Below are positions 7,422-38,474 of a stretch of 38,474 nucleotides of DNA, piece after piece (position 1 is the first letter of the stretch; every line of letters begins with the position of its first letter). The notes below the pieces were generated by a model. The model made no database searches, was not told where the DNA came from, and worked only from the letters and a program-made list of their open reading frames with translations. The position numbers were made by a program, and so were the translations under genes. The DNA is taken from IMG/VR virus record IMGVR_UViG_3300032163_000051, positions 1-38,474 of that record; one strand, written 5' to 3'. Source of the DNA: a virus.

Positions 7422-7778
7422 GTGACCGAAACGCTATGGCTTCTGCTGCTGATCTCCGCCGTCGGCGCCGGATGTTTTTATGCAGGTTGGCGGTCCGCCG
7501 CGGCGTACTTGAGCGCCGCGAGCGCCGTGTCCACCCAGACCAACATGGTCATCGCTCAGTCGAACTCCTACAGCGTCGCACTAGACAAGGCACAGGCTGA
7601 AAGTGCATCCTTGCGCGCGGCGGTTGACCGTCAATCGGAGGCGCTGGTTGGAAAGCAACGAGACATCGAAGCCGCACTACAGGCCATATTCGTCGGGTTC
7701 GAGCGGGCCGGTGTTGTCCGTAGCCAAGCAAGAGCGGTTGGCCGCCAAGTTGGCGAGACAGGAACGGAACAGGGCTGA
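7422..7778 (+). CDS. Membrane-anchored helical protein, 118 residues
   Basis: GTG 7422 lies behind a strong AGGAGGAG. The N-terminus is a single membrane helix (about residues 4-24, LWLLLLISAVGAGCFYAGW), and the rest is Ala/Gln/Glu-rich and helical (DKAQAESASLRAAVDRQSEAL). The layout resembles i-spanin or other membrane-tethered coiled-coil proteins, but it lies far from the lysis genes. The 3' end overlaps the upstream extension of the terminase frame. Function unknown. Confidence 0.55.
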   Translation: MTETLWLLLLISAVGAGCFYAGWRSAAAYLSAASAVSTQTNMVIAQSNSYSVALDKAQAESASLRAAVDRQSEALVGKQRDIEAALQAIFVGFERAGVVRSQARAVGRQVGETGTEQG

Positions 7779-10700
7779 ACACAGAGCGAAAACCGAACGT
7801 CTCGAAGCGGACCGGAAACGACAGAAGGAGGCGGAACGTGCAATTCACATGCAGGGTCGTCGGGCACGATCGGGTCAAGTACCCGTCCGGGTCCAGCGCG
7901 GTTCTGGACTTCGAGGTCCAGCAAGCCATTCCGTTCGCGAAGTAACGACACGCAGGGTCGGTTCACAGGACGAGCCACCCCCGCCCGAGTTTCCGGGACT
8001 CGACTACTACGCCGACCTCACGAACTTCGAGGAGTTCTGCCGAGACTGCCTCGTCATCATCACTAAGCAGGGCAAGCGCGTCCCGTTCGTCCTGAACAGC
8101 AGCCAGCGCATCATCCTCCGCAAGATCCGAGAACTCATCGCCTCCGGCATCCCGCCACGAGTCGTCATCCTCAAAGCAAGGCAGGTCGGCGTCTCCACGC
8201 TGACCGAAGCACTTCTCTTCTGGGACTGCGTTGTGCGGCCCAACCGCTCCGCGCTCGTCATCGCTCACACGCTGAAAAGCTGCAAGACGCTCTTCCGCAT
8301 GAGCCGGAACTTCCACCGCTTCCTCGAAGGCGACCTGAAGCAGAACACCCGCATCCAGAACGTCCACGAGATCGAACTCGATTCCGGCTCAAGGATGCAG
8401 GTCGAGGTCCAGGGCGAGCCGCGAGGATACACCGCCCAGAAAGTGCATCTCTGTCTAGCTCCCGACGTTCCCGTTCTGATTTCCGATGGCAGGGAGGTTC
8501 GGGCCGATGCCGTCCGGGCCGGGGATCTCGTGGTGACGCATCTAGGAAACTCCGCCGTCGTCACGGGCGTCTCGAAACGCTTCAATGCCGACCCGTGCGT
8601 CGCTGTCACGCCTTGGCTCGGCCGTCCGGTGACGCTCACGAAGACGCACCCGGTCTACACGCAGCGCGGATGGGTAAGGGCCGGGGATCTGGGGCTCGCC
8701 GATGAGGTTTCGATGCCGGTAAGGAAAATCACTCGCCGACTACGCACCCTCTGGCTTCTCAACCACGCCCGCAACGGTCTCAGGAAACACCGCCGTTTCG
8801 GATCTGGGGCTCGCATATCGCTGAGTGAGGATTTCGGGTATTTCGTTGGCTACTATCTCGCCGAGGGATGCATCATCCGCAACAAAAAGAGACTGCCGAG
8901 TGCGGTCGTGATGGCGAGGGACTGCGACGAAAACCGTTACGCCGATCGAGCGTGGAAAGCCGTGTCTCGCGTTTGTCCGTCGCGAGCGCAGAAACGCCAC
9001 TCTAAAAGCAGGACGGTGAGCGACATCTTCTACGGCTCGGCGATGGCCGAATTGGTGGAAAGGAATTTTGGCGCGGTAGACCAGAAGCGCGTGCCCGACT
9101 GGGTATTCTCGGCGGGCCGTCCATTCTGCCACGGATTGTTGATCGGGTATCTCTCTGGAGACGGGAGCAAGGTAGCGGCTCCGCAGGCGACGGTCGCGGC
9201 GACATCAACGCGAGAGTCCCTCACCTACCAGATGCGCGACATCGCGGCTGCGCTGGGATACGGTTGGGCTGCCGTTGACTTCAAGTCTCCCGGACTGAGA
9301 TTCGGGAGGCAAGAGAAGGCGGCGTGGATCGCCCGTTGGCACGGAGAAGGAGCGCGACGGATTCGCGAAGAACTCTGGCTTTTTAACTCCCCGCTTGGTA
9401 AACGCGCCGACGCGAAGTATCCGAAGCATGTGGTTAGAGGCGGCCACGTTTGGATGAGACTTCGTTCGCTGACCACGGCTGAGAAATCTTTAGTTTGCGA
9501 TATTGAGGTAGACCATGCCGACCACTCCTTCCGCACCGGCAGCTTTGCGGTGAAGAACAGCGAGATCGCTTACTTCGAGCAGGCGAAAGACACGCTGACC
9601 GCTGTGATGCAGACCGTTCCCTTGACCCTGGACTCCCTCGCGGTCCTCGAGAGCACAGCGAACGGCATGGGCGGGATCGGTGAGGCGTTCCACAAACTCT
9701 GGCAGCGCGCCGTTGGCCTCTCGCTCGACACCGACGTTCCTGAGTACGAGAAGGGCTGGACTCCGATCTTCATTCCCTGGTTCCAGCACGAGGAGTACGA
9801 ACTGGCGCTGACCGGAGGGGAGCAGCTCTACCGCACCCCAGACGAGATGAAACTGTGCCGGGATCACCACGAGATCACGAACAGAAAACTCAAGTGGCGC
9901 CGCTGGTGCATCAGCACGAACCTCGACGGAGACGTTGAGAAATTCGCTCAGGAGTACCCGGCCACAGACCAGGAAGCGTTCAGTTTGTCGGGCCGCCCCG
10001 CGTTCGACACCGAGGCCGTCGCGCACTACACGAAGGAACTCAGCGTGGTGGTCCTGGCGCACAAACTCCCGGAGCGAAGCGAGATCGAGGCCGAACCATC
10101 AGGTTCCGGTGTTCCGAAGATCATCGTCCAGGAGAAGGGCCGGCTCCGCATCTTCTTCGACCGTGAGCCGCGGCACACCTACCGAGTCGGAGCCGATCCC
10201 TCGGAGGGGGACCCGGGCTCAGACCACTCTCCGCTGGCCGTACTCGACGATCAGACCATGAACCTAGCGGCGACCTGGTACGGCAAGGCCCCGCCCGACG
10301 TGCTCGCCTGCTACGCGATCGACTTGGCGCACTACTTCAACGAGGCGGAGATCATCGGCGAAGCGAACAACCACGGGATCCTCTTCCACAACACGATTTC
10401 TCAGATGGGATACCCAAACCTCTACTACCGGCAGGTGAGCCCCGAATCGGTCGCGCAGGAAATCACCGACAAGCCCGGCTATCTCGCGACCACCCGGAAC
10501 CGCCAGCACCTCTTCGACACGCTGCGGAAGTACGTCAGGATGAAAATGGGCAAGATCCACTGCCCTCACATGATCCAGCAGATACAGACTCTCGTTTACG
10601 TTGACGACAAGGTTCAGGCGGGCGTAGGGTCGGAGAAGGACCTTCTCGTGGCCTTCGGGTTGTGCCTGATGTCGCACCGCGGGGACATGCACAGCCCGCT

Positions 10701-10899
10701 CGAGCCGCATCCTGAGACGATGATGCGGGCCGTTGCGAACACCGCGGCTATCATCAAGGAGCGTGAGGGCGCGGAGGCGTCGGATCGGTACGTCATGGTG
10801 GAGACCGGAATGACCGCAGCGCAGTGGTTGGCGACACAGGATGCTATCCTCGAACACGAGAAGCATCAGCGCAAGAACGGGCTGGGAGGATCTCGATGA
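7711..10899 (+). CDS. terL: Terminase large subunit (packaging ATPase/nuclease) containing an intein
   Basis: The packaging motor cuts and pumps DNA through the portal. The Walker A variant KARQVGVST is at about residue 155. Walker B is split by an intein just before SEIAYFEQ. The coupling motif LESTANG follows. The C-terminal RNase-H-like nuclease has acidic residues at GADPSEG (about 829), IIGEANN (about 884) and KDLLVAF (about 977). Without the 369-residue intein the protein is about 693 residues. The start is uncertain: GTG 7711 gives a charged helical extension, ATG 7849 is an alternative, and no good ribosome site or start codon lies close to the conserved part (about 7976). A 35-residue gene overlaps this extension. 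The stop overlaps the next ATG. Confidence 0.9.
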   Translation: MLSVAKQERLAAKLARQERNRAEHRAKTERLEADRKRQKEAERAIHMQGRRARSGQVPVRVQRGSGLRGPASHSVREVTTRRVGSQDEPPPPEFPGLDYYADLTNFEEFCRDCLVIITKQGKRVPFVLNSSQRIILRKIRELIASGIPPRVVILKARQVGVSTLTEALLFWDCVVRPNRSALVIAHTLKSCKTLFRMSRNFHRFLEGDLKQNTRIQNVHEIELDSGSRMQVEVQGEPRGYTAQKVHLCLAPDVPVLISDGREVRADAVRAGDLVVTHLGNSAVVTGVSKRFNADPCVAVTPWLGRPVTLTKTHPVYTQRGWVRAGDLGLADEVSMPVRKITRRLRTLWLLNHARNGLRKHRRFGSGARISLSEDFGYFVGYYLAEGCIIRNKKRLPSAVVMARDCDENRYADRAWKAVSRVCPSRAQKRHSKSRTVSDIFYGSAMAELVERNFGAVDQKRVPDWVFSAGRPFCHGLLIGYLSGDGSKVAAPQATVAATSTRESLTYQMRDIAAALGYGWAAVDFKSPGLRFGRQEKAAWIARWHGEGARRIREELWLFNSPLGKRADAKYPKHVVRGGHVWMRLRSLTTAEKSLVCDIEVDHADHSFRTGSFAVKNSEIAYFEQAKDTLTAVMQTVPLTLDSLAVLESTANGMGGIGEAFHKLWQRAVGLSLDTDVPEYEKGWTPIFIPWFQHEEYELALTGGEQLYRTPDEMKLCRDHHEITNRKLKWRRWCISTNLDGDVEKFAQEYPATDQEAFSLSGRPAFDTEAVAHYTKELSVVVLAHKLPERSEIEAEPSGSGVPKIIVQEKGRLRIFFDREPRHTYRVGADPSEGDPGSDHSPLAVLDDQTMNLAATWYGKAPPDVLACYAIDLAHYFNEAEIIGEANNHGILFHNTISQMGYPNLYYRQVSPESVAQEITDKPGYLATTRNRQHLFDTLRKYVRMKMGKIHCPHMIQQIQTLVYVDDKVQAGVGSEKDLLVAFGLCLMSHRGDMHSPLEPHPETMMRAVANTAAIIKEREGAEASDRYVMVETGMTAAQWLATQDAILEHEKHQRKNGLGGSR
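7838..7945 (+). CDS. 35-residue protein just before the terminase core
   Basis: GTG 7838 stands six bases behind AAGGAGG and the frame closes at TAA 7943-7945. The product includes TCRVVGHDRVKYPSGS and AVLDFEVQQAIPFAK, a plausible beta-rich miniprotein, with GC-rich third positions. It overlaps the upstream extension of the terminase frame, so one of the two readings there is probably wrong, or both are used. Confidence 0.45.
   Translation: MQFTCRVVGHDRVKYPSGSSAVLDFEVQQAIPFAK
8452..9558 (+). other. Intein with LAGLIDADG homing endonuclease inside terL
   Basis: The 369-residue insert starts at Cys (TGT 8452) and ends at Asn (AAC 9556-9558), with Ser as the first residue after it. Splicing blocks are visible: block A begins CLAPDVPVLISDG, block B is TKTHPVYT, and block F is VCDIEVDHADHSF, ending AVKN. 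Two LAGLIDADG-type helices are present (YFVGYYLAEG at about 8839-8868 and GLLIGYLSGDGS at about 9133-9168), so the endonuclease domain looks intact. The residue before the terminal Asn is Lys instead of the usual His. The insert splits the ATPase Walker B, so splicing is needed for packaging. Confidence 0.9.
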
Positions 10900-11661: not shown

Positions 11662-13481
11662 TGGCTGGGAATCTCTTCAACGAGCCGGACGGATCAACCT
11701 TCGTCGCTTCAGAGCGGCATGTTCCCGAGACTCCTCCGTTCGGCTCCTTCGGCGAGGACGAGGACAAGCTCAAGGCGTGGGTCTGCGAGAAGTGGAACAC
11801 GCTCTTCCACCTGAAGCGGGGAGAGGCCGAGCGGCTCAAAACCTGCGAGCTTTACTACGCCGGGTTTCACTTCATCGACCCCTGGGAGAACCGCAACAAC
11901 GCGATCACCAACTACTGCTTCCAGACCGTCGAGACAGTCTGGCCGATTCTCACGCAGGCTCGCCCGCGGCCCGAGCCGGTCCCGCGTCGCTTCATGGACG
12001 CTCAAAAGATCAAGGGGCTGAAGGACTTCGCTACCTACAAGATGGACAGCACGGGGTTCGACCGGCTCTTCCGCGTATCCGTGCGCGACCTGCTGAAATA
12101 CGGCTGGTGTTGCCCGATGATTGGCTGGGACGCTCAAGGCGCCGCGATACCCCGCTACCTCTCCCCGTTCGATTTCTACCCAGATCAGGCCACAGACGAA
12201 TCCGAACTCGAGTGCTTCGCCATTGCACGTCCCGCATCGACGCGGCGCCTTCGCGCACTGTTCCCGCGCGTCGCGGAGAAGATCAAGCCTGACAACATCG
12301 CCAGCCCAAGTTACGAAGTCCTCGTGAAGCCCTACCTCGAGGCGGCGGGCGTTCTCGGCGGACTGAGTTTTCCCCAGTTCATCGGGACGATGCCCTCGGC
12401 GATCTTCGAGGGAGACCCGGCGGCCACGACAAGCGGGGAGTACGGGATCGATACCGGCTCTTTCTCCGTGTTCGGCCAGACCACGTTCCTGATCCAACTC
12501 TTCGTTCGCGACTACACCACGATGGACGTGAAGTACGTCGGGCAAAAACTCATCGACCACGAGACCGGAGAACTCAGGATTCCCCACTCAAAGACGGTCA
12601 AGGAGCCCTGTTGCCCCTCCGGGTGGCGCATGGTTCCGATGACCGCCTCCGGAGTCCTTCTGGACCGGCCTCGGCCCGTCGATCCCGTGCTCGGCGGGAT
12701 CCCCCTGGTGATTGGGCGAGACTACGAGCAGGGCGGGCGGTTCTACGCCAAGGGCGAACTGGACGACGTGATCCCGCTCCAGCGGGGCATCAACCGCTCC
12801 GACGCGATGATCGACCGCGGCCTTGAACTCTCGTCCGATCCCCCCGTGCTCCTATCCACCGATTCCGGCCTCTCGATCGACAAGCAAGCGGTCTCTGGCG
12901 GAGAGATCCTTCGCATCAAGCGCGGGGCGACGATGCAGTACCTCCAGCCTCAGGGGATCGCGGAGTCGCACTTCGTTCGCCGTGCCGCCCGCCGCCAAGA
13001 CGTTCAGATCGTCTCCGGCACACCGGACGCGCTCCAAGGCCAGAGGCCGATCGGCGTCGAGGCCGCCGCCGCGATCCGTCAACTCACCGAGACGGCTGGT
13101 GGCCGTGCGAGGGCGAAGGGCGCGGGCACGTTAGAGTTCGCGGCGCTCCTCCTTCAGAAGATGATCCAGGCTGACATCAGGAAAAGCAGGGATGTGATCT
13201 ATTTCCTGGACAGCAGCGGAGCCGATATGTGGCTCAATCCAGACGACTACCGCGCCGATGATTTTGAAATTCGGTGGAGTCAAGCTAGTGGGTCAGCCCA
13301 AAACGAACAGGACAGGCAAGATCTCAACCTTCAGCTTTATCAGATGGGGATCGTGGACGCTCAACAAGTTCTAGAAGACGCCGATTATCCCGATAGAGCC
13401 AACATTCTCCAGCGCGTCGGTCTGCGACAGATGCAGGCCGCCGCGGCCGCGCAGGTCGCTGGAAACGGGAAGAAATCATGA
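11661..13481 (+). CDS. Portal protein
   Basis: The 606-residue protein follows the terminase and small zinc genes, the usual portal position. It has segments typical of podovirus portals: an aromatic N-terminal stretch (CELYYAGFHFIDPWENRNNAI), a conserved wing (RVSVRDLLKYGWCCPMIGWD, YLSPFDFYPDQ), and a long C-terminal helix region (DALQGQRPIGVEAAAAIRQL, then QQVLEDADYP). Twelve copies would form the ring through which DNA enters and leaves the head. GTG 11658 is an alternative start. Assigned by order and pattern rather than search. Confidence 0.8.
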   Translation: MAGNLFNEPDGSTFVASERHVPETPPFGSFGEDEDKLKAWVCEKWNTLFHLKRGEAERLKTCELYYAGFHFIDPWENRNNAITNYCFQTVETVWPILTQARPRPEPVPRRFMDAQKIKGLKDFATYKMDSTGFDRLFRVSVRDLLKYGWCCPMIGWDAQGAAIPRYLSPFDFYPDQATDESELECFAIARPASTRRLRALFPRVAEKIKPDNIASPSYEVLVKPYLEAAGVLGGLSFPQFIGTMPSAIFEGDPAATTSGEYGIDTGSFSVFGQTTFLIQLFVRDYTTMDVKYVGQKLIDHETGELRIPHSKTVKEPCCPSGWRMVPMTASGVLLDRPRPVDPVLGGIPLVIGRDYEQGGRFYAKGELDDVIPLQRGINRSDAMIDRGLELSSDPPVLLSTDSGLSIDKQAVSGGEILRIKRGATMQYLQPQGIAESHFVRRAARRQDVQIVSGTPDALQGQRPIGVEAAAAIRQLTETAGGRARAKGAGTLEFAALLLQKMIQADIRKSRDVIYFLDSSGADMWLNPDDYRADDFEIRWSQASGSAQNEQDRQDLNLQLYQMGIVDAQQVLEDADYPDRANILQRVGLRQMQAAAAAQVAGNGKKS

Positions 13482-13981
13482 ACGCCAATACCGAGAAAAG
13501 ATTCTGGGCAAGGGTCCAGATGGGCCTGTTCTGCTGGGACTGGCTGGGAGCCTTAAGTCAGGGCTACGGCCATCAAGAGGTCGCCGGTAGCAGGACCAAG
13601 GCGCACCGGCTCTCTTGGGTAATCCACTTCGGCCCGATCCCAGATGGCCTCTGCGTCCTCCATCGCTGCGACAATCCTCGGTGCGTGAATCCAGCCCACC
13701 TCTTCCTCGGCACGCAGGCCGATAACATTCAAGACATGATGGCGAAGGACCGCGGTCGATGGCCTGTGAGATCCGGCGAGGATGCCAACAATGCTAGGCT
13801 GACCGCCGCTCAGGTTCGCACGATTCGAGAGCGCGTGGCGGCTGGCGAGACTAGGGGATCGCTGGCCCGTGAACTTGGCGTCCACAAAACGACGGTCGCA
13901 AAGATCGTATCGGGCAAACTGTGGGCTACCGTTCCGATGGCCGCCACGCAGAACAGTGGCAAGAAGAAAGGCGGGAAGTGA
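13478..13981 (+). CDS. HNH homing endonuclease with HTH tail, 167 residues
   Basis: ATG 13478 overlaps the portal stop (ATGA). The N-terminal part has the HNH_3-type core: AHRLSWVIHFGPIPDG, then VLHRCDNPRCVNPAHLFLG, then ADNIQDM. The last 55 residues hold a helix-turn-helix (SLARELGVHKTTVAKIVSGK) that would read the target DNA. Free-standing enzymes of this type spread between related phages by cutting intact copies of their insertion site. A second HNH gene lies at 22014. Confidence 0.85.
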   Translation: MNANTEKRFWARVQMGLFCWDWLGALSQGYGHQEVAGSRTKAHRLSWVIHFGPIPDGLCVLHRCDNPRCVNPAHLFLGTQADNIQDMMAKDRGRWPVRSGEDANNARLTAAQVRTIRERVAAGETRGSLARELGVHKTTVAKIVSGKLWATVPMAATQNSGKKKGGK

Positions 13982-28047: not shown

Positions 28048-31000
28048 GTGCCGACCCTTGGCGAACTGATCCCGAGCAGTGTGCGGGCTCGGTTCCCGGA
28101 CTCCACGCTCACCCCAAAGGCGCTGAAAGTCCTTTCTCTGCCGGCGCCCGGCAAACTCTCCCCAACAGATCTCTCCAGGATTTCGGCGGCGCTCACCGCG
28201 GCGCTCCCTAGCTACACCTTGGCGGCCAGGGAGCAGCGGGTCCGCTCCAAGCCAGTCATGCGGACTTCGGAGAGCCCCGAGGATGCCCGAGGAGTAGCGG
28301 TCGCTCCCCCTGGAAACGCTGGTCGTCCTGCCATCCAGAACCCAGACGGCTCGTTCTCAACCGAACGGACCATCACGGTTGGTGTTGACGGAAGATTTCT
28401 CAATATTCCGACGATAGTGGACGGCAGGCAACGGACGCCATCAGAAGCGATCAGCCTATACCGCGCAGGCCAGAACCCAGCAGTGGACAGCGCATTTACC
28501 GAGGCGGATGCGCTCACGCTTGCGACGGCTCGCTCGGCTCAGATCGGAGCGTCGCGATCCCAGGATGCCCGCACAGCCATCGCCAGCCCGTCTGGGGCTA
28601 CAACGCCACCTCAGCCACCCCAGACTGCCGCCGAGTACGAAACGGCCCACTACACGGCTCTCCCTCCATTCCAGAGGGCGCTCCTCCAGTTCTCTGCGGG
28701 GGCGCACGCAGCACTCCCAAGCAGGGAGACAAAGACGGTCGAGAAGTTTCCGGGACCGCAGGGACCACTCGAGTCAATGGCGCGGACATCTGGGGGCGTG
28801 GCGGGTTTCAGCGCGGTAGCTATCCCGGCAGCGGAAGTTACGGCCATGACGCTAGGAGCGGCCCCACTCGTAGCTGGCGCTGTCGGCGCTGGTATCGCTG
28901 GCGGGGCGGCAGCGGGCACCCAGAAGGAGCGTATCGCGCGAGCCGGAACTATGGCGGTGTCCTCAGCGGTCTTGGGCCGATTCACGAACGCCGTCACGGC
29001 GACCTTGGCGAAGCGGCTCGCTACCGATGCTCCGGAGGTAGCCGCGGCGCTCGGCAAGGAGTTCAACGACTCAGTTGCCAGGGCGGTAAGGCGCGGCGCG
29101 CCCCAAGCCGATGCCGAGGCCGCAGCCCAGAAGGTACTCTGGCGGAAGATGGCGGACGCTACGCTATCGGCTAAGGCCAAGGTGGCGGCCATCCAAAGTG
29201 GCGCTTCAGCGGTGGGTGGAGCTGCCGTATTCGGCGCCGGCCAACCTCTTGCGGAACACGCGGTGCTTGGGGCGATGGGCGAGAAGACGCGGTACCCGTC
29301 GACCGACCAGATGGTCCAGTCCGGACTCGAGCTTCTTGCGATGAACCTCATTACACAGGGACACGGACTCGCCAGGGGCTTTGCGGCCGAGGGCGTGAGG
29401 GTTGGCGAACCATCTCCACTGGACTTTCGGCCGACCGCCACAGAGACGGACGCCATCAAGCAGAACATCAAAAGGCCGACGGCATTGGTGCCTCACATGG
29501 CGAAGGTCAGCAACGAGGCCAGCACCGAACTCGCTAACGCCATCGCCAACATGCAGAAGACAGCGACAGCCCCCATTGGCATCAAGACACCGGATCTCTC
29601 GATCGCCAATGTTCACATCGTTCCGACACTGGTGAGGGTCTTCCCGGGCGATACCAACCCGGTGCGTGTGACGGTACTGGACAACACGACCGGCAAGATG
29701 CACTCGATAGGATTGCCAAGTATCGCCGCGTTGCGCGGTGCCCTGGTACTGGGTCCACGCCCGCTTCCGCCAGGACTAGAAGTGCCCGCCGCGGCTGAAG
29801 TCCCGGGGCCCAAGCCGACCCAGTCAAAGACGACTGTACCGGGGCCAATGGTCACGCCGGAACTGCACCCAGCGCCAGCGTATGCCGCGTTTGGGGAGAA
29901 GGCCGCAGCGCGGAAACAAGCAATCCTTGAGGTAGGGACTCTCGCCGCGCAACTCACGGCGAAGGCCCAGGAGAGGATCGCGACGGCTCCGAAGGCCATC
30001 GCGGCGCTCGAACGCCAGATCGCTGAACGCCCCAACGACGCCAACGTGAATCGGTGGAAGCGCAGGCTAGAGAAACTCAAGGCGCTGCCTGTGCCAGAAG
30101 CGCCATTAGAGAAGGCGGCGGTAGCGGAACAGCCAAGGAAGGGTCCAGTGGCAGGGGGGATAGCGTCCAAGGAGGCCGCTCCGCCGCCGAAACCGAAACC
30201 GGGACGCGGGGAACAGCCCCCGCCTAAAGCAAAGCCATCCTTGCCCCCCACGGGGGAGGCTCCGCGTCCCGTTCCTACCGTTGGGGGAGGCGGGTCAAAG
30301 GTTGTACGAGAGCCAACCGCCAAAGAACGCGCCACGATGAAGTCCGGCGAGACCAAGGTGATCGGAGGGCAGATCGTCCACCGTATTACGGAGGAGACCG
30401 AACGCAGGCTTGCGAGAACGGAACGGCGGACAGCCGGGGCCACTAGCCTCGAGGGTGGCGAACCTATCGTGGAGCGCAGAAAGGCCGAGTCTCCTGCGAG
30501 ACGAGCTGCGGACCGTCAAAAGCTCCTCGCCATCCAGCGCGAGGCCGAATCCGAACTCGGACGAACCAAGGCCGAGAAGGGACCGATAGCGGAGGAGCGG
30601 CGCCGAGAGATTGAGGCCAGGGCTCGCGGTGCCAGAGAGGCGGCTGCCGGCGCGGAGCCGCCAATTACGAAGACCACGCGCAAGCCAACGGGTCCGCTTG
30701 AGCGTGGGGACAGGGTTTCGGCTGTGAGGGGCTCGTATAAGGGCGAGAACGGCTTCGTATTGTCCACTGGAGCCGGCGGTCACTACATTCGGTGGGACAC
30801 TGGCCGAAGTTCGGTCGAGTCTCCAGAGAACCTGAGACCGCGGGCCGGTTCGGCGAGGGCGACGGAGGCTGAAGTGAAAAGGCTGGAGTCCGTCGAAGAG
30901 CCGACAATCCCGCGGTCCTACGCTAAGGGCCAGGAGCCTCCGCAGAGGCCGGACGTTGAGGGCGAAGTAGCGGCATCGGTTCGCAAGCGTGCTGGCCTGC

Positions 31001-34000
31001 TCCCGGTTGAGGAGATGCCTTACAAACCGACGCGCGGCTTCGTCTCGACGCAGGCTATGGCGACGAAAGATTATCTGACGGACGGCCACATGCTACTCGT
31101 CGCCTCCGAGACCGAAGCGAAGATACATGAACGGCTCGCTAGGCTGGCGATCGAGTCGGCCAGACCGTCCCCTAAGGCTGAGGGGTTCAAGCAGGTTATA
31201 GATGAAGCTACCGCGAAGCCTTCGGTACAACTCCAGGCACGCGGTTGGGCGACTGTGGTGGGCGGCAAGTACATGAATACCACGGGCGAACACCCGGTCG
31301 CTGTCTTCTACGATCCGAAGACCGACAGGGTTGTCACGGTCGACCCCGACAAATGGAAACTGGCCGTCAAGGCCGTCTCGCCGGATTCCTACGAGCAACG
31401 CCTAAATCCGAAGGCGGTGCCGAGTTTCAAGGGCAACAAGGAAGCGAACCTCGCCCAATGGGCACCACTCGCCATGTACAGGGGCGGCAAGTTCGTTGGA
31501 CTCATCATGCCGATACGCGAGACAGACGCGGGAGTGGCTGAGATCCGCGGCTTGCTCGGGAAGTCTGCCGAACTTGTGACCCACGAGTCCCGCATGGGCG
31601 GTGCGCCGTCAGCCGGGCGCCAAGCGCCGGCACCGGGTCGCGGCATCCCTATTGCCTCCAGAGCGCCAAGGATACCGACTGAAGCCGAGTCGCGGGCGCT
31701 CCCAGAGGCAACGGTCCCGGCCCTGCCGCCAGAAATGAGAAAAGGCGTCTTGGCAGGAACGGTTGAGAAGGCGCGCGAGGTTCTGCATGAGTTCGTGGCG
31801 ATTACGAATCCAGTTCGCTACGCCGTTGGACCGAATCTCGACGTGCTGATGAAGGCCAAGGGGAGCATCAAGCGGGCGCTCTTCCGGACCGAACAAGCGC
31901 AGAAGGCGATGCACCGATACTGGGAAGGAAGGCCCAAAGCGCAGGTCATGGACTTCTGGGACCGATTGGAGTCCGGGAAGCAACCAGCCCCGCATCTTGC
32001 AGAGATCGACGCTCTGTATCGGGAACGCGCCGAGAATATGTTCAAGGCCATCTCCCGCTACAAGGAGATCCCGTACTGGGAAAACTGGTTCCCCCATCTG
32101 TGGAAGGATCAGAAGAAAGCTAGGGAGTTCTTTGCGTCTCGTCGCCCGATGGAGGGGCGCAAATCGTTCCTGAAGAAGCGTCTGTTCGAGGACATCCGCT
32201 CTGGCATCGAGGCTGGGCTCGAACCTGCATCGTGGAATCCCGAGGAAATTATGCAGGCGGCGGAGCACAACGCTCGCAAGTACGTCATGGTTCAGGAGAT
32301 GGTCGAGGACTTCAAGGCGCTTGGCTCGATGAAACTGGTGCGACTTGGGGAGAAACCCCCGGAGGGGTTCAGACCCCTCAACCAAAACTGGGCGCAACTC
32401 TATCTGAACCCCGAGATCCAGTTGAAGGAGTACCACGACAAGAAGATCATGGAGGGCCTTGCTGGGGTCGCCGACGCCATCGGTATTCGGCGTGAACGCA
32501 AAGTCCGTATCGGCGGAACACGCCTTGGATATTCCGAGTCCCGCGCCGGTTCCACGGGCCGCGTGGTCACGAAGTTCGCTACTCCTGAGAGTGTTTTGGC
32601 TCACGAGATCGGCCACCAGATCGACTCGAAGTACGGGCTCCGGAATGAGTTCATCCGCAAGTCAACGCCTGCGGAGAAGAAGGAGCTTAGGGCTCTTGTA
32701 GACCTTCGGCTTGGCGGAGAAGAGACGACACCCGCCTTCAAGAGGTACATCCGGGAAGGCCCGGAGAAAATGGCTACGCTGCTCGAGGCACTGATCCACG
32801 CGCCCGAGGAGTTCCGCCGGGTCGCTCCGACGAATTATGGGAAGTTCGTCGCGTTCCTATCCGCGAGGCCTGAGTTGGCCCCGCTTGTCCATATCAGGCC
32901 CTCGCTCCAAGTGATCGAGGGCACCGGGACCGTTCACGCTGGCGGGGTCGTCTTGGGTGGAAAATACTGGGCGGAGGAGAACCTGGCGCGGCTGCTAGAT
33001 AACCACATGAGCCGCGACTTCATCACTGAGACTCGACTGGGGCGCGGCATCATGGACAGTCGGAATACTCTCAACGCGATTAATCTCGGCGTCTCTGCGT
33101 TCCACGCCACAGGAACGACGCTGCTCGCCATGATGTCCCGCATGGGGGTTGGAATTTCCGACATCGCACACGGTGAGGTGAGGCTGGGCACCTACAAGGT
33201 GCTCACCTCACCGGCGGCTTCGATCGCTTACGCGCGGGAGGGCTGGAAGTTCTTCCGGGGGGCCCCGGAATTGGCTCACATCGAGGAGGCGCTGTTCACG
33301 GGCGGCGCCAGCCTGGAGCGCAAGCAGTACTACAAGAACCAGATGCTCGACGCCTTCGTCAAGAACGCTCGCCAGGCGGTTGCGCTCGGCACTCCGTACG
33401 AACGCCTTGGGGGAGCGGCGAAGGCGGTCGCGCTCGCTCCGTTCGCCGCGATCGAGGCGCCGATGCGGCTTCTTTCGACGAAGTACATTCCCCAGATGAA
33501 AGTGGGCGCGTTCCGAGATCTGTTCTCAAGCCAGCTCCGCATCAAGGCGAAGGACATCGCCGCCGGAAAGACGAGCGAAGCGGACGTAGCGCGCATCGCC
33601 TGGAGAGACGTAGAGGACCGCTTCGGACTCATCAATTACGACAACGAGTTTTGGAACAGTACGCTCAAGACCAGCGTCATGGTGCTTATACGCGCCCCGG
33701 GATGGACGCTCGGGACCATTCGCGGTCTTGGCGGCGCTGCGTTCGCCGATCTTCCTCGGTTCGCGGCGCGCGCTGCCAGGGGCAAGGCCCCAGAGTGGAC
33801 CTCTCGTATGTCCTTCGCGCTCTCTATGGTGTTTTCGACGATGGCCGTGGGCGCGGTCTACCAGTTCTTGCACACCGGCAAGTGGCCGAACACCCTCGAG
33901 GACTATCTGCATCCCCAGAACGGGCTAACCGACGAACGGGGAAGATCGCAGCGGGTCAATCTCCCTACCTACATGAAGGATGTTGAGGGATGGTCGACCG

Positions 34001-34347
34001 ATCCGGTGAAAACGTCGTTTGGGCGGATTCAGCATGGTCGCGGCGCTTCGACCATCGGCCACGGGGGAAAACTCGCACCGGAGATAACGCTCACGCTCGA
34101 CCTCCTGGAGAACCAGTCCTACCGGGGACCGATCCGCAACGTCAACGATCCGGCCTACGAGCAAGCTGGCCAGGTGATGCGATACATCTTCGCGAGAGAG
34201 CAACCGTTCGCCGTCCAGCAGGCTAGGCGGATCGCCCGAGAGGGCGGCGGCAAAGCGAAGATCGCGGAGTCATTCTTCGGAATCACGCCTTACTATCCGC
34301 GGAGCGGTAAGCCGCGACCGTTCCGCTACCACGAACAGGGGGAATAG
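28048..34347 (+). CDS. Giant internal virion ('polyvalent') protein with zincin motif, 2,099 residues
   Basis: GTG 28048 starts a 2,099-residue chain. A domain at about residues 92-165 (NIPTIVDGRQRTPSEAISLY) recurs in phage internal proteins. A Gly/Ala hydrophobic region is at about 250-300. Low-complexity Pro/Lys/Glu linkers span about 690-880. A KOW/SH3-like piece is near 885 (RGDRVSAVRGSYKGENG). A further domain is at about 1000-1180. A metallopeptidase-type HEIGHQID is at about 1519-1526, followed by an acidic helix (LLEALIHAPEEFRR) that could supply a third ligand. The last 600 residues are helical and hydrophobic in places. It is probably ejected into the cell with the DNA, where the peptidase could cut wall or host proteins. 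Function inferred. Confidence 0.75.
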   Translation: MPTLGELIPSSVRARFPDSTLTPKALKVLSLPAPGKLSPTDLSRISAALTAALPSYTLAAREQRVRSKPVMRTSESPEDARGVAVAPPGNAGRPAIQNPDGSFSTERTITVGVDGRFLNIPTIVDGRQRTPSEAISLYRAGQNPAVDSAFTEADALTLATARSAQIGASRSQDARTAIASPSGATTPPQPPQTAAEYETAHYTALPPFQRALLQFSAGAHAALPSRETKTVEKFPGPQGPLESMARTSGGVAGFSAVAIPAAEVTAMTLGAAPLVAGAVGAGIAGGAAAGTQKERIARAGTMAVSSAVLGRFTNAVTATLAKRLATDAPEVAAALGKEFNDSVARAVRRGAPQADAEAAAQKVLWRKMADATLSAKAKVAAIQSGASAVGGAAVFGAGQPLAEHAVLGAMGEKTRYPSTDQMVQSGLELLAMNLITQGHGLARGFAAEGVRVGEPSPLDFRPTATETDAIKQNIKRPTALVPHMAKVSNEASTELANAIANMQKTATAPIGIKTPDLSIANVHIVPTLVRVFPGDTNPVRVTVLDNTTGKMHSIGLPSIAALRGALVLGPRPLPPGLEVPAAAEVPGPKPTQSKTTVPGPMVTPELHPAPAYAAFGEKAAARKQAILEVGTLAAQLTAKAQERIATAPKAIAALERQIAERPNDANVNRWKRRLEKLKALPVPEAPLEKAAVAEQPRKGPVAGGIASKEAAPPPKPKPGRGEQPPPKAKPSLPPTGEAPRPVPTVGGGGSKVVREPTAKERATMKSGETKVIGGQIVHRITEETERRLARTERRTAGATSLEGGEPIVERRKAESPARRAADRQKLLAIQREAESELGRTKAEKGPIAEERRREIEARARGAREAAAGAEPPITKTTRKPTGPLERGDRVSAVRGSYKGENGFVLSTGAGGHYIRWDTGRSSVESPENLRPRAGSARATEAEVKRLESVEEPTIPRSYAKGQEPPQRPDVEGEVAASVRKRAGLLPVEEMPYKPTRGFVSTQAMATKDYLTDGHMLLVASETEAKIHERLARLAIESARPSPKAEGFKQVIDEATAKPSVQLQARGWATVVGGKYMNTTGEHPVAVFYDPKTDRVVTVDPDKWKLAVKAVSPDSYEQRLNPKAVPSFKGNKEANLAQWAPLAMYRGGKFVGLIMPIRETDAGVAEIRGLLGKSAELVTHESRMGGAPSAGRQAPAPGRGIPIASRAPRIPTEAESRALPEATVPALPPEMRKGVLAGTVEKAREVLHEFVAITNPVRYAVGPNLDVLMKAKGSIKRALFRTEQAQKAMHRYWEGRPKAQVMDFWDRLESGKQPAPHLAEIDALYRERAENMFKAISRYKEIPYWENWFPHLWKDQKKAREFFASRRPMEGRKSFLKKRLFEDIRSGIEAGLEPASWNPEEIMQAAEHNARKYVMVQEMVEDFKALGSMKLVRLGEKPPEGFRPLNQNWAQLYLNPEIQLKEYHDKKIMEGLAGVADAIGIRRERKVRIGGTRLGYSESRAGSTGRVVTKFATPESVLAHEIGHQIDSKYGLRNEFIRKSTPAEKKELRALVDLRLGGEETTPAFKRYIREGPEKMATLLEALIHAPEEFRRVAPTNYGKFVAFLSARPELAPLVHIRPSLQVIEGTGTVHAGGVVLGGKYWAEENLARLLDNHMSRDFITETRLGRGIMDSRNTLNAINLGVSAFHATGTTLLAMMSRMGVGISDIAHGEVRLGTYKVLTSPAASIAYAREGWKFFRGAPELAHIEEALFTGGASLERKQYYKNQMLDAFVKNARQAVALGTPYERLGGAAKAVALAPFAAIEAPMRLLSTKYIPQMKVGAFRDLFSSQLRIKAKDIAAGKTSEADVARIAWRDVEDRFGLINYDNEFWNSTLKTSVMVLIRAPGWTLGTIRGLGGAAFADLPRFAARAARGKAPEWTSRMSFALSMVFSTMAVGAVYQFLHTGKWPNTLEDYLHPQNGLTDERGRSQRVNLPTYMKDVEGWSTDPVKTSFGRIQHGRGASTIGHGGKLAPEITLTLDLLENQSYRGPIRNVNDPAYEQAGQVMRYIFAREQPFAVQQARRIAREGGGKAKIAESFFGITPYYPRSGKPRPFRYHEQGE

Positions 34348-34348
34348 G

Positions 34349-34852
34349 ATGGGGTTGCGTATCTCAGAGCACTTCACGCTGGAGGAGTTTCTGCCGAAGG
34401 ACGCGCAGACATCGGCCGTGCCGCTCGACATCGCCAAGAACATCGAGGCGCTGGCGGCGAGCCTGCTGGAGCCGTTGCGCGCGCACTGCGGGGCCCCCAT
34501 CGCGATCCACTCTGGCTGGCGTCCGCCAGCGCACAATGCCGAGGTAGGTGGCGTTGCCGGCTCGGATCATCAGCGCGGGGCCGCGGCGGATTTTCACGTC
34601 GCGGAGACCTATGGGGCCACGTGGGAAGAAAACACGATCGCAGCCTTTGACTGGTTGCGGGAGAACAAAGCGGGAGAGTTCGGGCAACTCATTCTGGAGG
34701 ACCATCGCCATCACTACGATCTCCCGGGAAAGTTGTGGGTTCATGTTTCGCTCAGGAGCGCCAAGCACGGCGGTACGAACGGAGACAAGAACCGGCTTCT
34801 GGTCTCCTACGCGCCGCGCGAGTACGCTACTTGGGTGGATCCGCTCGCGTAG
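34349..34852 (+). CDS. Endolysin: M15-type zinc peptidase, 167 residues
   Basis: The M15 pattern is clear: IAIHSGWRPPAHNAEVGG, then GSDHQRGAAADFHV (SxHxxGxAxD, zinc His and Asp), then LWVHVSLR (third zinc ligand His). M15 peptidases cut peptide cross-bridges of peptidoglycan. There is no signal peptide, so release needs a holin, found just downstream. ATG 34349 follows the giant gene by one base. Confidence 0.85.
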   Translation: MGLRISEHFTLEEFLPKDAQTSAVPLDIAKNIEALAASLLEPLRAHCGAPIAIHSGWRPPAHNAEVGGVAGSDHQRGAAADFHVAETYGATWEENTIAAFDWLRENKAGEFGQLILEDHRHHYDLPGKLWVHVSLRSAKHGGTNGDKNRLLVSYAPREYATWVDPLA

Positions 34853-34929
34853 CATTGTCGTGGTAGCGGTTCGCGGCCGGTTCGCCCCCGGCATACGGAA
34901 CACACAAAGGGATCGGTACGGAGACCTGA

Positions 34930-35163
34930 ATGAAGCCAGGATGGGTCGTGGTGGCTCAGATTCTCGTGACGATTCTGCTTGCGGCGTTCGCTTCATACGG
35001 AGGGGTGCGGGCCGGCCAGGCTCAGTCGACGGCCAAAAGCGAAGCCCTGCAAGAACGCGCCGATCTCCAGCAGGCGCAAATGAACCGGATGGAGGACAAT
35101 ATCAACTGGCTCGTCCGGCACGAGATCGAGAAGGCGGATCGCGCTTCAGGGAGGACCAAGTGA
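34930..35163 (+). CDS. Membrane-anchored coiled-coil protein of the lysis cassette, 77 residues
   Basis: ATG 34930 is six bases behind GGAG. One N-terminal membrane helix (about residues 5-25, WVVVAQILVTILLAAFASYG) is followed by a Gln/Glu/Ala-rich helix (TAKSEALQERADLQQAQMNR). The layout fits an i-spanin-like or antiholin-like protein next to the endolysin. A matching outer lipoprotein was not found. The 77 bases before it hold no gene. Confidence 0.55.
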   Translation: MKPGWVVVAQILVTILLAAFASYGGVRAGQAQSTAKSEALQERADLQQAQMNRMEDNINWLVRHEIEKADRASGRTK

Positions 35164-35182
35164 ACCAATGGAGGGACCGACG

Positions 35183-35518
35183 GTGAACGAACTTAAGGCG
35201 TACCTGCCCGGCCTCATGGTTGCGGCCGGGGGGATGCTTCAGTGGTTTCGGCAGTTCAGCGCCTTCCGCGAGCAGTACTACCATCTCGTCGCGGTGGCGC
35301 TCGGCGTCCTGGCCTTCTGGCTCGTGACGCCCTACACCGGGGGCGATTGGCGCGGCTGGTGGCTTTCGTGCATCGACTTCCTCACCGTCGGAGGCGGTGG
35401 CCTGGCGCTCATCTACGGTGGTACGTTCCTCGTCAGCAACGGTGCCAAGGCGGCCGCGGCGGCGAATCCCTCGGCGGCTGCGAACAACATTGGGCTGCCG
35501 CTAACGAATAGCAAGTGA
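35183..35518 (+). CDS. Holin-like membrane protein, 111 residues
   Basis: GTG 35183 is seven bases behind GGAGGG, so it is preferred to ATG 35168. Three hydrophobic segments are seen (about residues 8-22, 38-54 and 68-88: LMVAAGGMLQWF, VAVALGVLAFWLVTP, TVGGGGLALIYGGTFLVS), with an Ala/Asn-rich tail. Size and place fit a class-I-type holin that releases the M15 endolysin. Confidence 0.6.
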   Translation: MNELKAYLPGLMVAAGGMLQWFRQFSAFREQYYHLVAVALGVLAFWLVTPYTGGDWRGWWLSCIDFLTVGGGGLALIYGGTFLVSNGAKAAAAANPSAAANNIGLPLTNSK

Positions 35519-35535
35519 CCCCAAAGGAGGTCCGC

Positions 35536-35862
35536 ATGAAACGCCTTATCCTCGCAGTCGCAGTTCTCGCACTTCTCTCGGTCTGGATGGCCGGGCCAGT
35601 GCCCGCGCAGACAACGAACGCGCCGCTCCTGTCTCTCCAGCGGGTGTCGGTCGGGTTGCGCGGTGAGTACGTGGCGTACTGGCCGGAGCACTCGCTGGGC
35701 CTGGAGAACTCCGGGGAGTTCAAGCTGGGCGTCCCCATCGCCTACAACCTCGGCCGCTACTCCTCGCTGGGGCTCAACTACCGATACGGCCTGACGAGCA
35801 AGGTGAAGGAACTTTCGGTGGGCGTCACACTCCACCTGCTCGCTAGAGGTAAAACCCCGTGA
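35536..35862 (+). CDS. Exported beta-strand-rich (outer-membrane-like) protein, 108 residues
   Basis: ATG 35536 follows AAAGGAGGTC. A signal peptide (MKRLILAVAVLALLSVW...) is followed by alternating hydrophobic/polar strands (RVSVGLRGEYVAYWP, FKLGVPIAYNL, SLGLNYRYGL, LSVGVTLHLL), as in small outer-membrane barrels or half-barrels. Such phage proteins could block receptors against other phages or assist lysis. It is coupled to the next gene by a GTGA overlap. The fold is inferred from strand pattern. Confidence 0.5.
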   Translation: MKRLILAVAVLALLSVWMAGPVPAQTTNAPLLSLQRVSVGLRGEYVAYWPEHSLGLENSGEFKLGVPIAYNLGRYSSLGLNYRYGLTSKVKELSVGVTLHLLARGKTP

Positions 35863-36122
35863 AAATTGCCGACCTGATAGCGATCGCGAAGCGGATGCTC
35901 GAGGACGGAACGGCGCGGGAAGACGTGTTCGCCTTCCTGGACGCGCAAGCCGTGCGGGATCCGGCTCTGGCCTCGGCGGTGACTGCGGCGAAGGCGATGC
36001 TGGAGGCACTGTTGAACCAGGGGAACATCACCGACACCTTCAGCAAGGCGCTGGCGGAAGTTCTGGCTCTGCTCAAGGAGAAGCACGGGCCGGTCTCAGA
36101 CGCGCCGGAAATCGGTTTGTAG
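35859..36122 (+). CDS. Small helical protein, 87 residues
   Basis: GTG 35859 overlaps the preceding stop. The chain is Ala/Leu-rich and fully helical (AIAKRMLEDGTAREDVFAF, then VTAAKAMLEALLNQGNIT and KALAEVLALLKEKHG). No membrane helix or signal. Function unknown; partner of the upstream exported protein by coupling only. Confidence 0.5.
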   Translation: MKIADLIAIAKRMLEDGTAREDVFAFLDAQAVRDPALASAVTAAKAMLEALLNQGNITDTFSKALAEVLALLKEKHGPVSDAPEIGL

Positions 36123-36139
36123 CAGCCAAAAGATTTTAC

Positions 36140-36168
36140 TTGACATCAAGTGTCCCCTGGCCGATACT
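36140..36168 (+). promoter_or_regulatory. Strong sigma70-type promoter
   Basis: TTGACA (36140-36145), a 17-base spacer, then GATACT (36163-36168). The start of transcription should be near 36174-36176, exactly at the beginning of the structured segment below. It is the best promoter in the window. Confidence 0.7.
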
Positions 36169-36174
36169 TCGTGT

Positions 36175-36267
36175 GGGCCTAGGGAACGGCAACGACTGAC
36201 GCGCGGCACCGAAGCTGACCTGACCCTTCCCTGGCCCAAGGTTGGTAGAGGTGCCGCGCTCGTTTTT
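36175..36267 (+). ncRNA. Predicted pseudoknotted small RNA, about 93 nt
   Basis: A promoter ends at 36168 and a terminator ends at 36267 with no gene between. Stem 1 pairs 36175-36186 with 36227-36237 (11 pairs, one bulged T at 36180). Stem 2 pairs 36201-36210 with 36250-36259 (10 perfect pairs) and is followed by TCGTTTTT. The 5' arm of stem 2 is inside stem 1 and its 3' arm outside, so the two form an H-type pseudoknot if present together. An RNA with its own promoter and terminator is likely; its role is unknown. Leader attenuation of the downstream genes is the alternative. Confidence 0.6.
36250..36267 (+). terminator. Intrinsic terminator (3' arm and T run)
   Basis: The 3' arm of a perfect 10-base GC stem (paired with 36201-36210) is followed by a run of five T (36263-36267). 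It would end the small RNA, or attenuate read-through into the RecT-like operon. Confidence 0.6.
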
Positions 36268-36487
36268 GTGGTGTGCGGTGAGCCGTCCCAAGGGAGCGGT
36301 GAAACCGAACCTAGTGGTCTACGGGGGCCAAAGTGGGCTTGTCGCGAGCCCGGCCCAGTGCACGCGAAAGTCCTGATACGGAGACCGGCTCTGCGCGGCT
36401 GGGGCAAGGACTGGTGGCTCGAGACAGGGGCGATTAGAAAAGTGAACCGTAGCGCCGCACATCGCACTTACCGAAAGGAGCATGGGG
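36268..36487. other. 220-base spacer before the recombination operon
   Basis: No credible gene is seen. It contains a small hairpin (GGGCT/AGCCC, near 36332-36353) and a ribosome site (AAAGGAG) at its end. A second promoter was not recognised, so downstream genes may rely on read-through. Confidence 0.35.
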
Positions 36488-37777
36488 ATGGCAGAAAAGA
36501 GGGAAACGGCGGTGGTGGTCTCCGGATTGACCGCGATCGTTGGTACGCTGGACGAGAAGGCGCGTGCGTTCCAGCAAATCGCGTCGGCAGCATCGAGCGG
36601 GCTATTCCCCGCCGGCTATGACACCGTGCCGAAGATCTTGGCCGCCAGTTGGTTCGGGGACGGTCTCGGTGTCCATCCGACGATCTACATGGAGGGCATC
36701 CAGCCGGTTCAATTCGGTGGCAAGACGGTACGCGAACCGAAGTGGGAGTTCGTGAACGCGCTCCTGCGTTCTCGGTTGCCAGGCTTCGACTTCACTGTCC
36801 TAGAGGAGTCGGACACGGCATGCGAGATCGAGTTCTTCGCCGCGGGGCGTAAGTCGCAGAAGTCCAAGTACACGATGCAGGAAGCGGTAAAGCAGGGACT
36901 CGCTGGCCCCTCCGGGCGTAACCGGGACGGCTACGAGAAGAACGCTCGGAAGATGCTATGGAAACAGTGCTTCAAGATGGGCGCCGATCGGATCGGAGCG
37001 GACGTGCTCGCGGGACTCCCGGCGATGTCGTTCGACACCGAGGATGTTTCCGTGAGTGCCCCGACCCCGGCGCAGGCCATCGAGAGCGCCATCGCCAAGG
37101 CGACGGGCAAGCCGGTCGACGTGCCGTTCGAGGAAGAGGCCGAGCAAGTCGCTAATATCGGCGGAGTTCTCGAGCATATCCCAGCCGAACCCCCCGCCGA
37201 GCCAGAATCGGCCCGCGTGCGCCTGGCGGGAGCGGTGAAGCGCCGCTACGGGAACCTCTCGAAGGCCGTGCTGTCCGAGAAGGTGAACCTCCTCTACAAC
37301 GTGATGATCGAGGAGCAGACCGGCGTGAACCCGAAGCAGGAGTTCACGGCGAAGCGCCCAATCGGCCCGGTCGAGGCCGAGCAACTAATCACGTATCTCG
37401 ACGAGACGCGGAAGAAGAAGCCCAACGGCGGGAACGGGCAAGCCGAGAACGTCGAGGAGGCGCCCGCAGCGGAGGAGACGCCAGAGCCGGAGACAAACGA
37501 GACCGCTGGCGGGACTACGCTCGTCGAGTCTTACGACAACCTGATGGGCACCGTGCTCCGAGCGCGCAAGCTCTTTGGGCGGAAGTTCATTCAGGAAGCC
37601 CCGCCGGAGTCCGGGAAATACTGGTTCGTTGACCAACTGACCTTCGCACAGGCTGGCTACAAGGCGTCGGTCAAGATGCAGGTGGGCCCGGACATCGTTG
37701 CGCCCCCGGAATTGCTGGAGCAGTTGAACTGTATTCTCTCCGAGGCGTGTGACGCGAAGGAAAGGAACGGACGATGA
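36488..37777 (+). CDS. RecT-like single-strand annealing protein, 429 residues
   Basis: ATG 36488 is seven bases behind AAAGGAG; ATG 36482 is closer than usual. The N-terminal 180 residues resemble RecT-type phage recombinases: AASWFGDGLGVHPTIYMEGI, then WEFVNALLRSRLPGFDFTVL, then YTMQEAVKQGLAG and NARKMLWKQCFKMGADRIG, before VLAGLPAMSFDTEDV. These proteins anneal complementary strands in replication and repair. A Glu/Pro-rich linker and a second domain (about 240-310 and 350-429) are extensions. It heads an early-type operon. Family call by pattern only. Confidence 0.6.
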   Translation: MAEKRETAVVVSGLTAIVGTLDEKARAFQQIASAASSGLFPAGYDTVPKILAASWFGDGLGVHPTIYMEGIQPVQFGGKTVREPKWEFVNALLRSRLPGFDFTVLEESDTACEIEFFAAGRKSQKSKYTMQEAVKQGLAGPSGRNRDGYEKNARKMLWKQCFKMGADRIGADVLAGLPAMSFDTEDVSVSAPTPAQAIESAIAKATGKPVDVPFEEEAEQVANIGGVLEHIPAEPPAEPESARVRLAGAVKRRYGNLSKAVLSEKVNLLYNVMIEEQTGVNPKQEFTAKRPIGPVEAEQLITYLDETRKKKPNGGNGQAENVEEAPAAEETPEPETNETAGGTTLVESYDNLMGTVLRARKLFGRKFIQEAPPESGKYWFVDQLTFAQAGYKASVKMQVGPDIVAPPELLEQLNCILSEACDAKERNGR

Positions 37778-37968
37778 GGATAGCCCTCACTGCCCTGGCG
37801 GTCTCGATGGCGTTCCCAGTGTTCATGTTCGCGGGCTCCATCGTGAAGTCCGTCGTCGAGTGGGACAAAGCGCCGGATGGTGTGAAGGAGTTCTTCACCG
37901 GCGCGTGTGCCCTGTTCAGTTTGGCGGTAGTCGCGGTCGCCATCGCGGCGATATGGAGGTTGAAGTGA
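37774..37968 (+). CDS. Small membrane protein with two helices, 64 residues
   Basis: ATG 37774 overlaps the upstream stop (ATGA). There are two hydrophobic segments (MRIALTALAVSMAFPVFMFA and FTGACALFSLAVVAVAIAAI) with a short charged loop between. Possible early membrane effector; unknown. Confidence 0.5.
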   Translation: MRIALTALAVSMAFPVFMFAGSIVKSVVEWDKAPDGVKEFFTGACALFSLAVVAVAIAAIWRLK

Positions 37969-38213
37969 GCGCGAAATACCCAGTTCAGTACGTCTCCGGC
38001 AGCAAGAAGTCCTCGCTCAACATCGAGGACATGGTGACGAGCCACCTCTGCAATGCCTGGAGGAAGCTGGTGAAGGACGAGACTCACCCTGACCAGTTCG
38101 AGTTGGTCAAGGCGATGGACGAGGAGCTGCGGGCCCGCGGCGGCATCTTCGACTCGGAGACGGGCCAGTGGGACTTCCCGCCGAAACCGGAGAGTGCTGG
38201 GGCAACGCCATGA
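37965..38213 (+). CDS. Small hypothetical protein, 82 residues
   Basis: GTG 37965 overlaps the previous stop (GTGA), and the stop overlaps the next ATG. The helical middle (EDMVTSHLCNAWRKLVKDE) and acidic tail give no family. Part of the recombination operon. Confidence 0.5.
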   Translation: MSAKYPVQYVSGSKKSSLNIEDMVTSHLCNAWRKLVKDETHPDQFELVKAMDEELRARGGIFDSETGQWDFPPKPESAGATP

Positions 38214-38474
38214 AACACGTCCTGGCGCCAGATCAAGTGACTCAGACCCTACTGGGCAGTCCAGCCGATCTCGAGCATGCCCTGACCACGGCGATGCGCT
38301 CGGTTGGACGCCGGATCACCGAACGGCCAGAAATCATCCGGGCGCTCACGGCTGCCGAGCAACTCAAGCCCGGCTACACCATCACGAACGAGGCTCAGGC
38401 GGCAGAGATAGCCGACCTGGTTGCGGAGGTCATTGACGGCGAGAAGATGCTGGCCCAAGAGGTCAAAACCGCCC
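38210..38474 (+). CDS. Early protein, 3' end outside the window
   Basis: ATG 38210 overlaps the upstream stop (ATGA). The visible 88 residues are helical (ADLEHALTTAMRSVGRRITE, then TITNEAQAAEIADLVAEVID), and the last part resembles the helical N-terminal region of many phage replication or host-takeover proteins. Truncated by the window end; no function assigned. Confidence 0.4.
   Translation, partial: MKHVLAPDQVTQTLLGSPADLEHALTTAMRSVGRRITERPEIIRALTAAEQLKPGYTITNEAQAAEIADLVAEVIDGEKMLAQEVKTA

Follow-up and report, generated by a model that had tools for sequence, protein, structure and literature searches.

The DNA analysed here, called the window below, is the whole 38,474-base record of an uncultured virus, IMGVR_UViG_3300032163_000051. 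Towards its right-hand end, a gene for a RecT-like single-strand annealing protein is preceded by a promoter-like sequence, by two crossing RNA stems that together would form a pseudoknot, and by a second structured RNA (RNA-B). Upstream of the element lie lysis-type genes, with an M15 peptidase endolysin at 34349-34852. Apart from RNA-B, the features of the locus are:

36138-36151, no strand assigned: perfect palindrome ACTTGA-CA-TCAAGT (ACTTGACATCAAGT) over the -35, a possible operator (read from the sequence)
36140-36145, plus strand: -35 hexamer TTGACA (sequence match; TTGACA with a 17-nt spacer in five of five phages)
36163-36168, plus strand: -10 hexamer GATACT (sequence match; predicted start at about 36175)
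36175-36186, plus strand: 5′ arm of stem 1, GGGCC[U]AGGGAA, by prediction the first transcribed bases, with U36180 bulged (pairing analysis)
36201-36210, plus strand: 5′ arm of stem 2, GCGCGGCACC (pairing analysis)
36214-36220, plus strand: 5′ arm of stem 3, GCUGACC, an inner extension of stem 2 (folding; kept in the relatives G004 and G010)
36227-36237, plus strand: 3′ arm of stem 1, UUCCCUGGCCC, inside the loop of stems 2 and 3 (pairing analysis)
36240-36246, plus strand: 3′ arm of stem 3, GGUUGGU (folding)
36250-36259, plus strand: 3′ arm of stem 2, GGUGCCGCGC (pairing analysis)
36260-36267, plus strand: U-rich tract UCGUUUUU, a possible but unproven terminator tail (read from the sequence)
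36474-36480, plus strand: Shine-Dalgarno AAAGGAG of the recT-like gene (read from the sequence)
36488-37777, plus strand: RecT-like single-strand annealing protein gene, with 36482 as an alternative start (profile, tblastn and structure matches)

The product of 36488-37777 has no Pfam, NCBIfam or significant PHROG match. Its relative in G001 matched annotated RecT-like proteins of actinobacteriophages (tblastn E = 7e-4 to 3e-3), and a profile built from four sequences scored about 38 bits to each of two actinobacteriophage RecT-like proteins. The structure model of the protein was poor overall (pLDDT 53.5); RecT-family models were among its viral structure matches, and it had no PDB match. A RecT-like search of bacterial and archaeal genomes returned no match and so pointed to no host. 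Elsewhere in the window, the terminase large subunit ORF (7603-10899, 1098 aa) has terminase matches towards both ends with weak Hint and LAGLIDADG matches between them, and probably carries an intein with a homing endonuclease. The portal gene is followed immediately by an HNH_3 endonuclease gene (13478-13981), which is likely a free-standing homing endonuclease.

The promoter (TTGACA-17 nt-GATACT, 36140-36168) agrees with the consensus at 10 of 12 positions and is the sole promoter-like match in a promoter scan of the right-hand 8.5 kb (30000-38474). Because that scan found no other promoter-like match in the window between the pseudoknot and the recT-like gene, the recT mRNA should carry the element. 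The initial annotation had placed a promoter, a first stem and a second stem crossing it at this site, with transcription starting at the first paired base. All three features were found there, and the predicted start, 36175, is both the seventh base past the -10 and the first base of stem 1.

The 11 pairs of stem 1, with one bulged U among them, interleave with the 10 perfect pairs of stem 2. Stem 3 prolongs stem 2 inward into one long hairpin, and the terminal loop of that hairpin contains the 3′ arm of stem 1. Stems 1 and 2 are probably able to coexist sterically, which counts against proof of a switch between them. AACGA between the two stems (36190-36194) is also complementary to UCGUU, the first five bases of the U-tract (36260-36264); with the full hairpin formed, stem 1 could hardly exist beside this pairing, which might thus be the competing arm of a switch. 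Taken by itself, the window gives modest evidence for the pseudoknot that is suggestive only: the 5′ segment pairs with the stem-2 loop at -25.5 kcal/mol, compared with -17.4 +/- 3.1 in dinucleotide shuffles (p = 0.012), and the z-score of the fold is -1.9.

We take the pseudoknot to be real because it is kept before the same recombination gene in four other phages, a comparison of five sequences only that makes the structure near certain as a conserved feature. The relatives are four other IMG/VR records with a recT-like gene, obtained from portal-gene and RecT-like searches, and their stems (5′ arm/3′ arm) are:

G001, IMGVR_UViG_3300017605_000599: stem 1 GAGACCUUCGAGU/ACUCGAAGGUCUC, stem 2 AGAAUCACGGCA/UGCCGUGAUUCU
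G004, IMGVR_UViG_3300036859_000534: stem 1 GGGUCAAGGGG/CUCCUUGACCC, stem 2 GCGCGGCGC/GCGCCGCGC
G010, IMGVR_UViG_3300036861_000464: stem 1 GGGCCUAGAGG/CCUCUAGGCUC, stem 2 AGCGCGGCGCC/GGUGCCGCGCU
G012, IMGVR_UViG_3300031576_000106: stem 1 GGUGGGGGCG/CGCCUCCACC, stem 2 GCUUCCCCUCGUC/GACGGGGGGAAGC

All four have TTGACA, 17 nt and a -10, then arms 1a, 2a, 1b and 2b, preceding the recT-like gene or its operon, and their RecT-like proteins are only about 34-47% identical to that of the window. The spacing from the -10 to the 5′ arm of stem 1 is 6 nt in the window and 7-10 nt in the relatives, and stem 1 sets in about 0-4 nt from the predicted start in all five phages. In G001 and G012 both stems are wholly different in sequence and unalignable with the other three; despite this, those of G001 form 13 and 12 perfect pairs. 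The least clean case is G012: its -10, CAGACT, is a weak one, and a nested hairpin shares bases with the 3′ arm of its stem 1. Other portal-based relatives (G002, G003 and G005-G009) are fragments without a recT-like match, which neither support nor oppose the structure.

A MAFFT alignment of the five leaders failed to align the stems of G001 and G012, and pairs were therefore counted on hand-taken stems. Three pairwise comparisons among the window, G004 and G010 gave 3, 5 and 3 two-sided changes in stem 1, with no broken pair, and 1, 0 and 0 in stem 2. Compensatory changes in both stems of relatives were what the initial annotation had looked to for support, and it had regarded loss of stem 1 with retention of stem 2 as the contrary sign; no such loss was seen, stem 1 being present in all five phages and bearing more two-sided changes than stem 2. 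The H-type pseudoknot that it had proposed at the predicted start is strongly supported by this five-phage comparison. Shuffle tests of the 5′ segment against the stem-2 loop point the same way (p = 0.012, 0.006, 0.047, 0.001 and 0.010 for the five phages; Fisher combined p = 6e-7), and no 5′ segment pairs as strongly with the loop of another phage as with its own. When both strands of a sequence stretch from each phage were scanned for any two interleaved stems (145-415 candidates per stretch), the leader ranked second in G010 and first in each of the other four phages. The first rank in the window belongs to a minus-strand reading of the same inverted repeats, and the plus-strand reading came 15th because the script left stem 1 unjoined across its bulge.

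A nucleotide search of the phage collection gave chance matches only or none, and Rfam, searched with the window and its relatives at gathering and relaxed thresholds, gave no credible match for either RNA. In Gordonia phage SmokingBunny and Corynebacterium phage Bran, the RecT-like genes lie inside operons and have no leader gap before them, which indicates that the element is not a general feature of recT.

Inverted repeats also occur at the promoters. The palindrome over the -35 is perfect in G010 too, as GCTTGACATCAAGC (L086 1314-1327), and a palindrome of this type was not found in G004 or G001. In G012, inverted-repeat arms of 14 bp flank the -35 (L104 4789-4830), and in G004 the repeat AATATTC-CTA-GAATATT lies just upstream of it (L085, upstream of 965). 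These repeats at or around the -35 in the window, G010, G012 and G004 look like repressor operators.

Directly after the U-tract, three of the phages (the window, G004 and G010) carry RNA-B, of about 200 nt:

36268-36465, plus strand: RNA-B, a second conserved structured RNA (alignment and folding of the window, G004 and G010)
36268-36280 with 36453-36465, plus strand: outer stem of RNA-B, 13 pairs
36319-36324 with 36447-36452, plus strand: inner stem of RNA-B, CUACGG/CCGUAG, with CCACGG/CCGUGG in G004

Its counterparts lie at about L085 1102-1290 (G004) and L086 1634-1830 (G010). Conserved stretches GGUGAAACCGA and GAAAAGUGA accompany a variable centre, and 15 predicted pairs, some of them in the outer and inner stems, show two-sided change, in an alignment that is poor over the central region. 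G001 and G012 lack RNA-B at the equivalent position. Searches of Rfam gave no match to it, and those of the viral collection none that was genuine outside these three phages. L090 was rejected as a carrier: its pattern match is a chance one, apparently in a coding region, in a record without a recT-like gene. In G010, an insert of about 180 nt between pseudoknot and RNA-B (L086 1447-1628) is closed by a perfect 10-bp stem, GGGTGGTCCC/GGGACCACCC, and is possibly a third structured RNA.

What follows stem 2 differs among the phages. A U-tract is present in four of the five, clean in the window and in G001 (UUCUUUU) and interrupted in G004 and G010, where UCGUUGUUU makes a poor terminator. No tract is present in G012; there, a stem-2 arm contains the recT Shine-Dalgarno. 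A terminator scan allowing loops of up to 8 nt did not flag the element of the window. The terminator of its own that the initial annotation gave to a separate RNA is therefore the weakest part of that claim: it stands as a clean U-tract in the window, and is imperfect in G004 and G010, absent in G012 and unflagged by the scan. The distance from stem 2 to recT ranges from overlap with the Shine-Dalgarno (G012) through 27 nt to the start codon (G001) and about 230 nt in the window, where RNA-B intervenes, to about 450-640 nt in G004 and G010, where the interval contains a small conserved ORF (74 codons in G004) as well as RNA-B. This variation is an argument against a simple operator of the gp32 kind that serves recT only, and points to a role at the level of the operon or of the 5′ end.

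In G001 an exonuclease gene comes next after the recT-like gene; the G010 record has recT at its right end and an exonuclease at its left end. G004 has about 9 kb of further sequence after its recT-like gene, ending in a leftward gene that matches one near the left end of the window. From the gene placement in G004 and G010, the records seem to be permutations of a single layout, cut at different points, with the element at the head of the early (recombination) region.

A terminator U-tract and masking of a Shine-Dalgarno are two usual outputs of cis-regulatory leaders. Finding one or the other at stem 2 favours a cis-acting leader with stem 2 as its output and stem 1 as its modulator. Judged by sequence, the element is likely a cis-regulatory leader of the recT operon, and such a leader would most likely be an attenuator-type switch, which makes the attenuator, among the three functions that the initial annotation had offered, the one closest to the comparison. 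We infer transcription itself, as well as the switch and its input. The full explanation that we favour, which we hold with even confidence, is that of a 5′-terminal pseudoknot leader on the transcript of an early recombination operon, acting in cis through a switch at stem 2, with the RecT-like protein as the likeliest input. Transcription would begin at the first base of stem 1, which could close once its 3′ arm had been made; the 5′ arm of stem 2 would then be caught in the stem 1 loop while its own partner arm was still to be transcribed. Stem 2, together with stem 3, would form next, cross stem 1 and act as the output: an early transcript end in the window and G001 (less clearly so in G004 and G010), and masking of the recT Shine-Dalgarno in G012. 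How much RecT-like protein is made, and how much of the products of the genes behind it, would depend on the balance among three outcomes, namely stem 1 alone, the full pseudoknot and read-through. The most plausible input would be the RecT-like protein itself, as with T4 gp32 on the pseudoknot of its own mRNA; such autogenous control is the most attractive choice because the gp32 proteins of T4 and RB69 act through a leader pseudoknot of differing sequence.

Other readings differ in how much of this pattern they account for. One is a free-standing small RNA with its own terminator, resembling RydC, which would pair with host or phage mRNA or titrate a protein. Promoter and terminator-like end do frame a unit of about 92 nt in the window and about 100 nt in G001, its folds are stable, and pseudoknotted small RNAs have a precedent in RydC (PMC8383071). 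However, the U-tract is imperfect in two of the five phages and absent in one, stem 2 overlaps the recT Shine-Dalgarno in G012, there is no conserved seed across the group, and the longest complement in the phage sequence was within the range of shuffled RNAs. A trans-acting small RNA is thus possible but less likely than a cis-regulatory leader, and as a full account of the element we consider it unlikely. The small RNA acting on mRNA and the decoy proposed by the initial annotation found no support, since the element heads a recT-like operon and has no antisense target beyond chance in the phage sequence. A type III toxin-antitoxin pseudoknot RNA was also rejected, there being no repeats and a RecT-like neighbour.

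The varying distance between stem 2 and recT keeps alive two readings that place the function at the start of the transcript. The leader could be a protein-free antiterminator that binds the RNA polymerase transcribing it and carries it past later terminators of the early operon, as put of HK022 does. This would suit the constant place of the element at the transcript start whatever comes next after it, and the several kb of genes beyond the recT-like gene in G004, but put RNAs are two simple stem-loops with no pseudoknot, stem sequences are not conserved between subgroups, Rfam gave no credible match, and a U-tract after stem 2 would be odd; we think this rather improbable. Alternatively, stem 1 might simply bury the first nucleotides and guard the early mRNA from 5′-end-dependent decay, with no switching. 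Its onset about 0-4 nt from the predicted start in all five phages, while the sequence drifts freely, is what such a stabiliser would show, but a crossing stem 2 kept together with a U-tract or Shine-Dalgarno would be left unexplained, and this reading seems quite improbable. Inverted repeats that arose by chance in GC-rich DNA, or repeats that serve as DNA operators and were read as RNA, would be compatible with the modest p value and z-score of the window alone and with the promoter palindromes that exist here as well. Recurrence of the same interleaved order and position at five of five loci, with compensatory changes, makes them highly improbable.

Beyond the favoured reading of a cis-acting recT operon leader, we tentatively suggest that these elements form a new family of 5′-terminal pseudoknot leaders controlling the early operon of an uncultured phage group, some with RNA-B adjacent. 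Within the same tentative proposal, members would act on the transcribing polymerase or sense the annealing protein, the structure being conserved and the sequence free, and terminator or Shine-Dalgarno-masking outputs would be interchangeable. Sequence search cannot reveal such leaders, and they may be widely missed.

Known systems share some of these properties. HK022 put consists of two simple stem-loops near the start of the early transcript and antiterminates in cis. Its likeness to the present element is that of RNA structure early in such a transcript, whereas here two stems cross in all five phages, without conserved stem sequence. RydC is a bacterial small RNA with a 5′ pseudoknot (PMC8383071), which is the point of likeness; it acts in trans through a seed, whereas here no seed or target was found and the recT operon follows in cis. 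The repZ leader of ColIb-P9 also contains a pseudoknot, near the ribosome binding site of a replication gene, which is needed for translation and is blocked by an antisense RNA (PMC8383071), while no antisense RNA was seen here.

The best-known leader pseudoknot that controls a phage single-strand DNA-binding protein is the one of T4 gene 32. The single-strand DNA-binding gp32 proteins of T4 and RB69 repress their own mRNAs by way of a leader pseudoknot, which is not the same in sequence in T4 as in RB69, and how far such control reaches other single-strand DNA-binding proteins is described as not known (PMC535899). As in these phages, a putative pseudoknot lies here in the 5′ mRNA leader of a phage single-strand DNA-binding or recombination protein, and structure is kept while sequence diverges. 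However, the T4 pseudoknot is of about 28 nt, whereas the present one spans about 85-98 nt, with long stems, at the predicted 5′ end of the transcript, and has a U-tract or Shine-Dalgarno at its second stem. UUAAA repeats and the ribosome binding site follow the pseudoknot in T4, while the window has the GC-rich RNA-B there, and a pyrimidine-rich stretch after the pseudoknot occurs in G001 only. The product, too, is RecT-like and not a gp32-type Ssb, and that it may bind the leader is a proposal drawn by analogy. A RecT-like operon leader kept by compensatory change would extend the gp32-type idea to phage annealing proteins.
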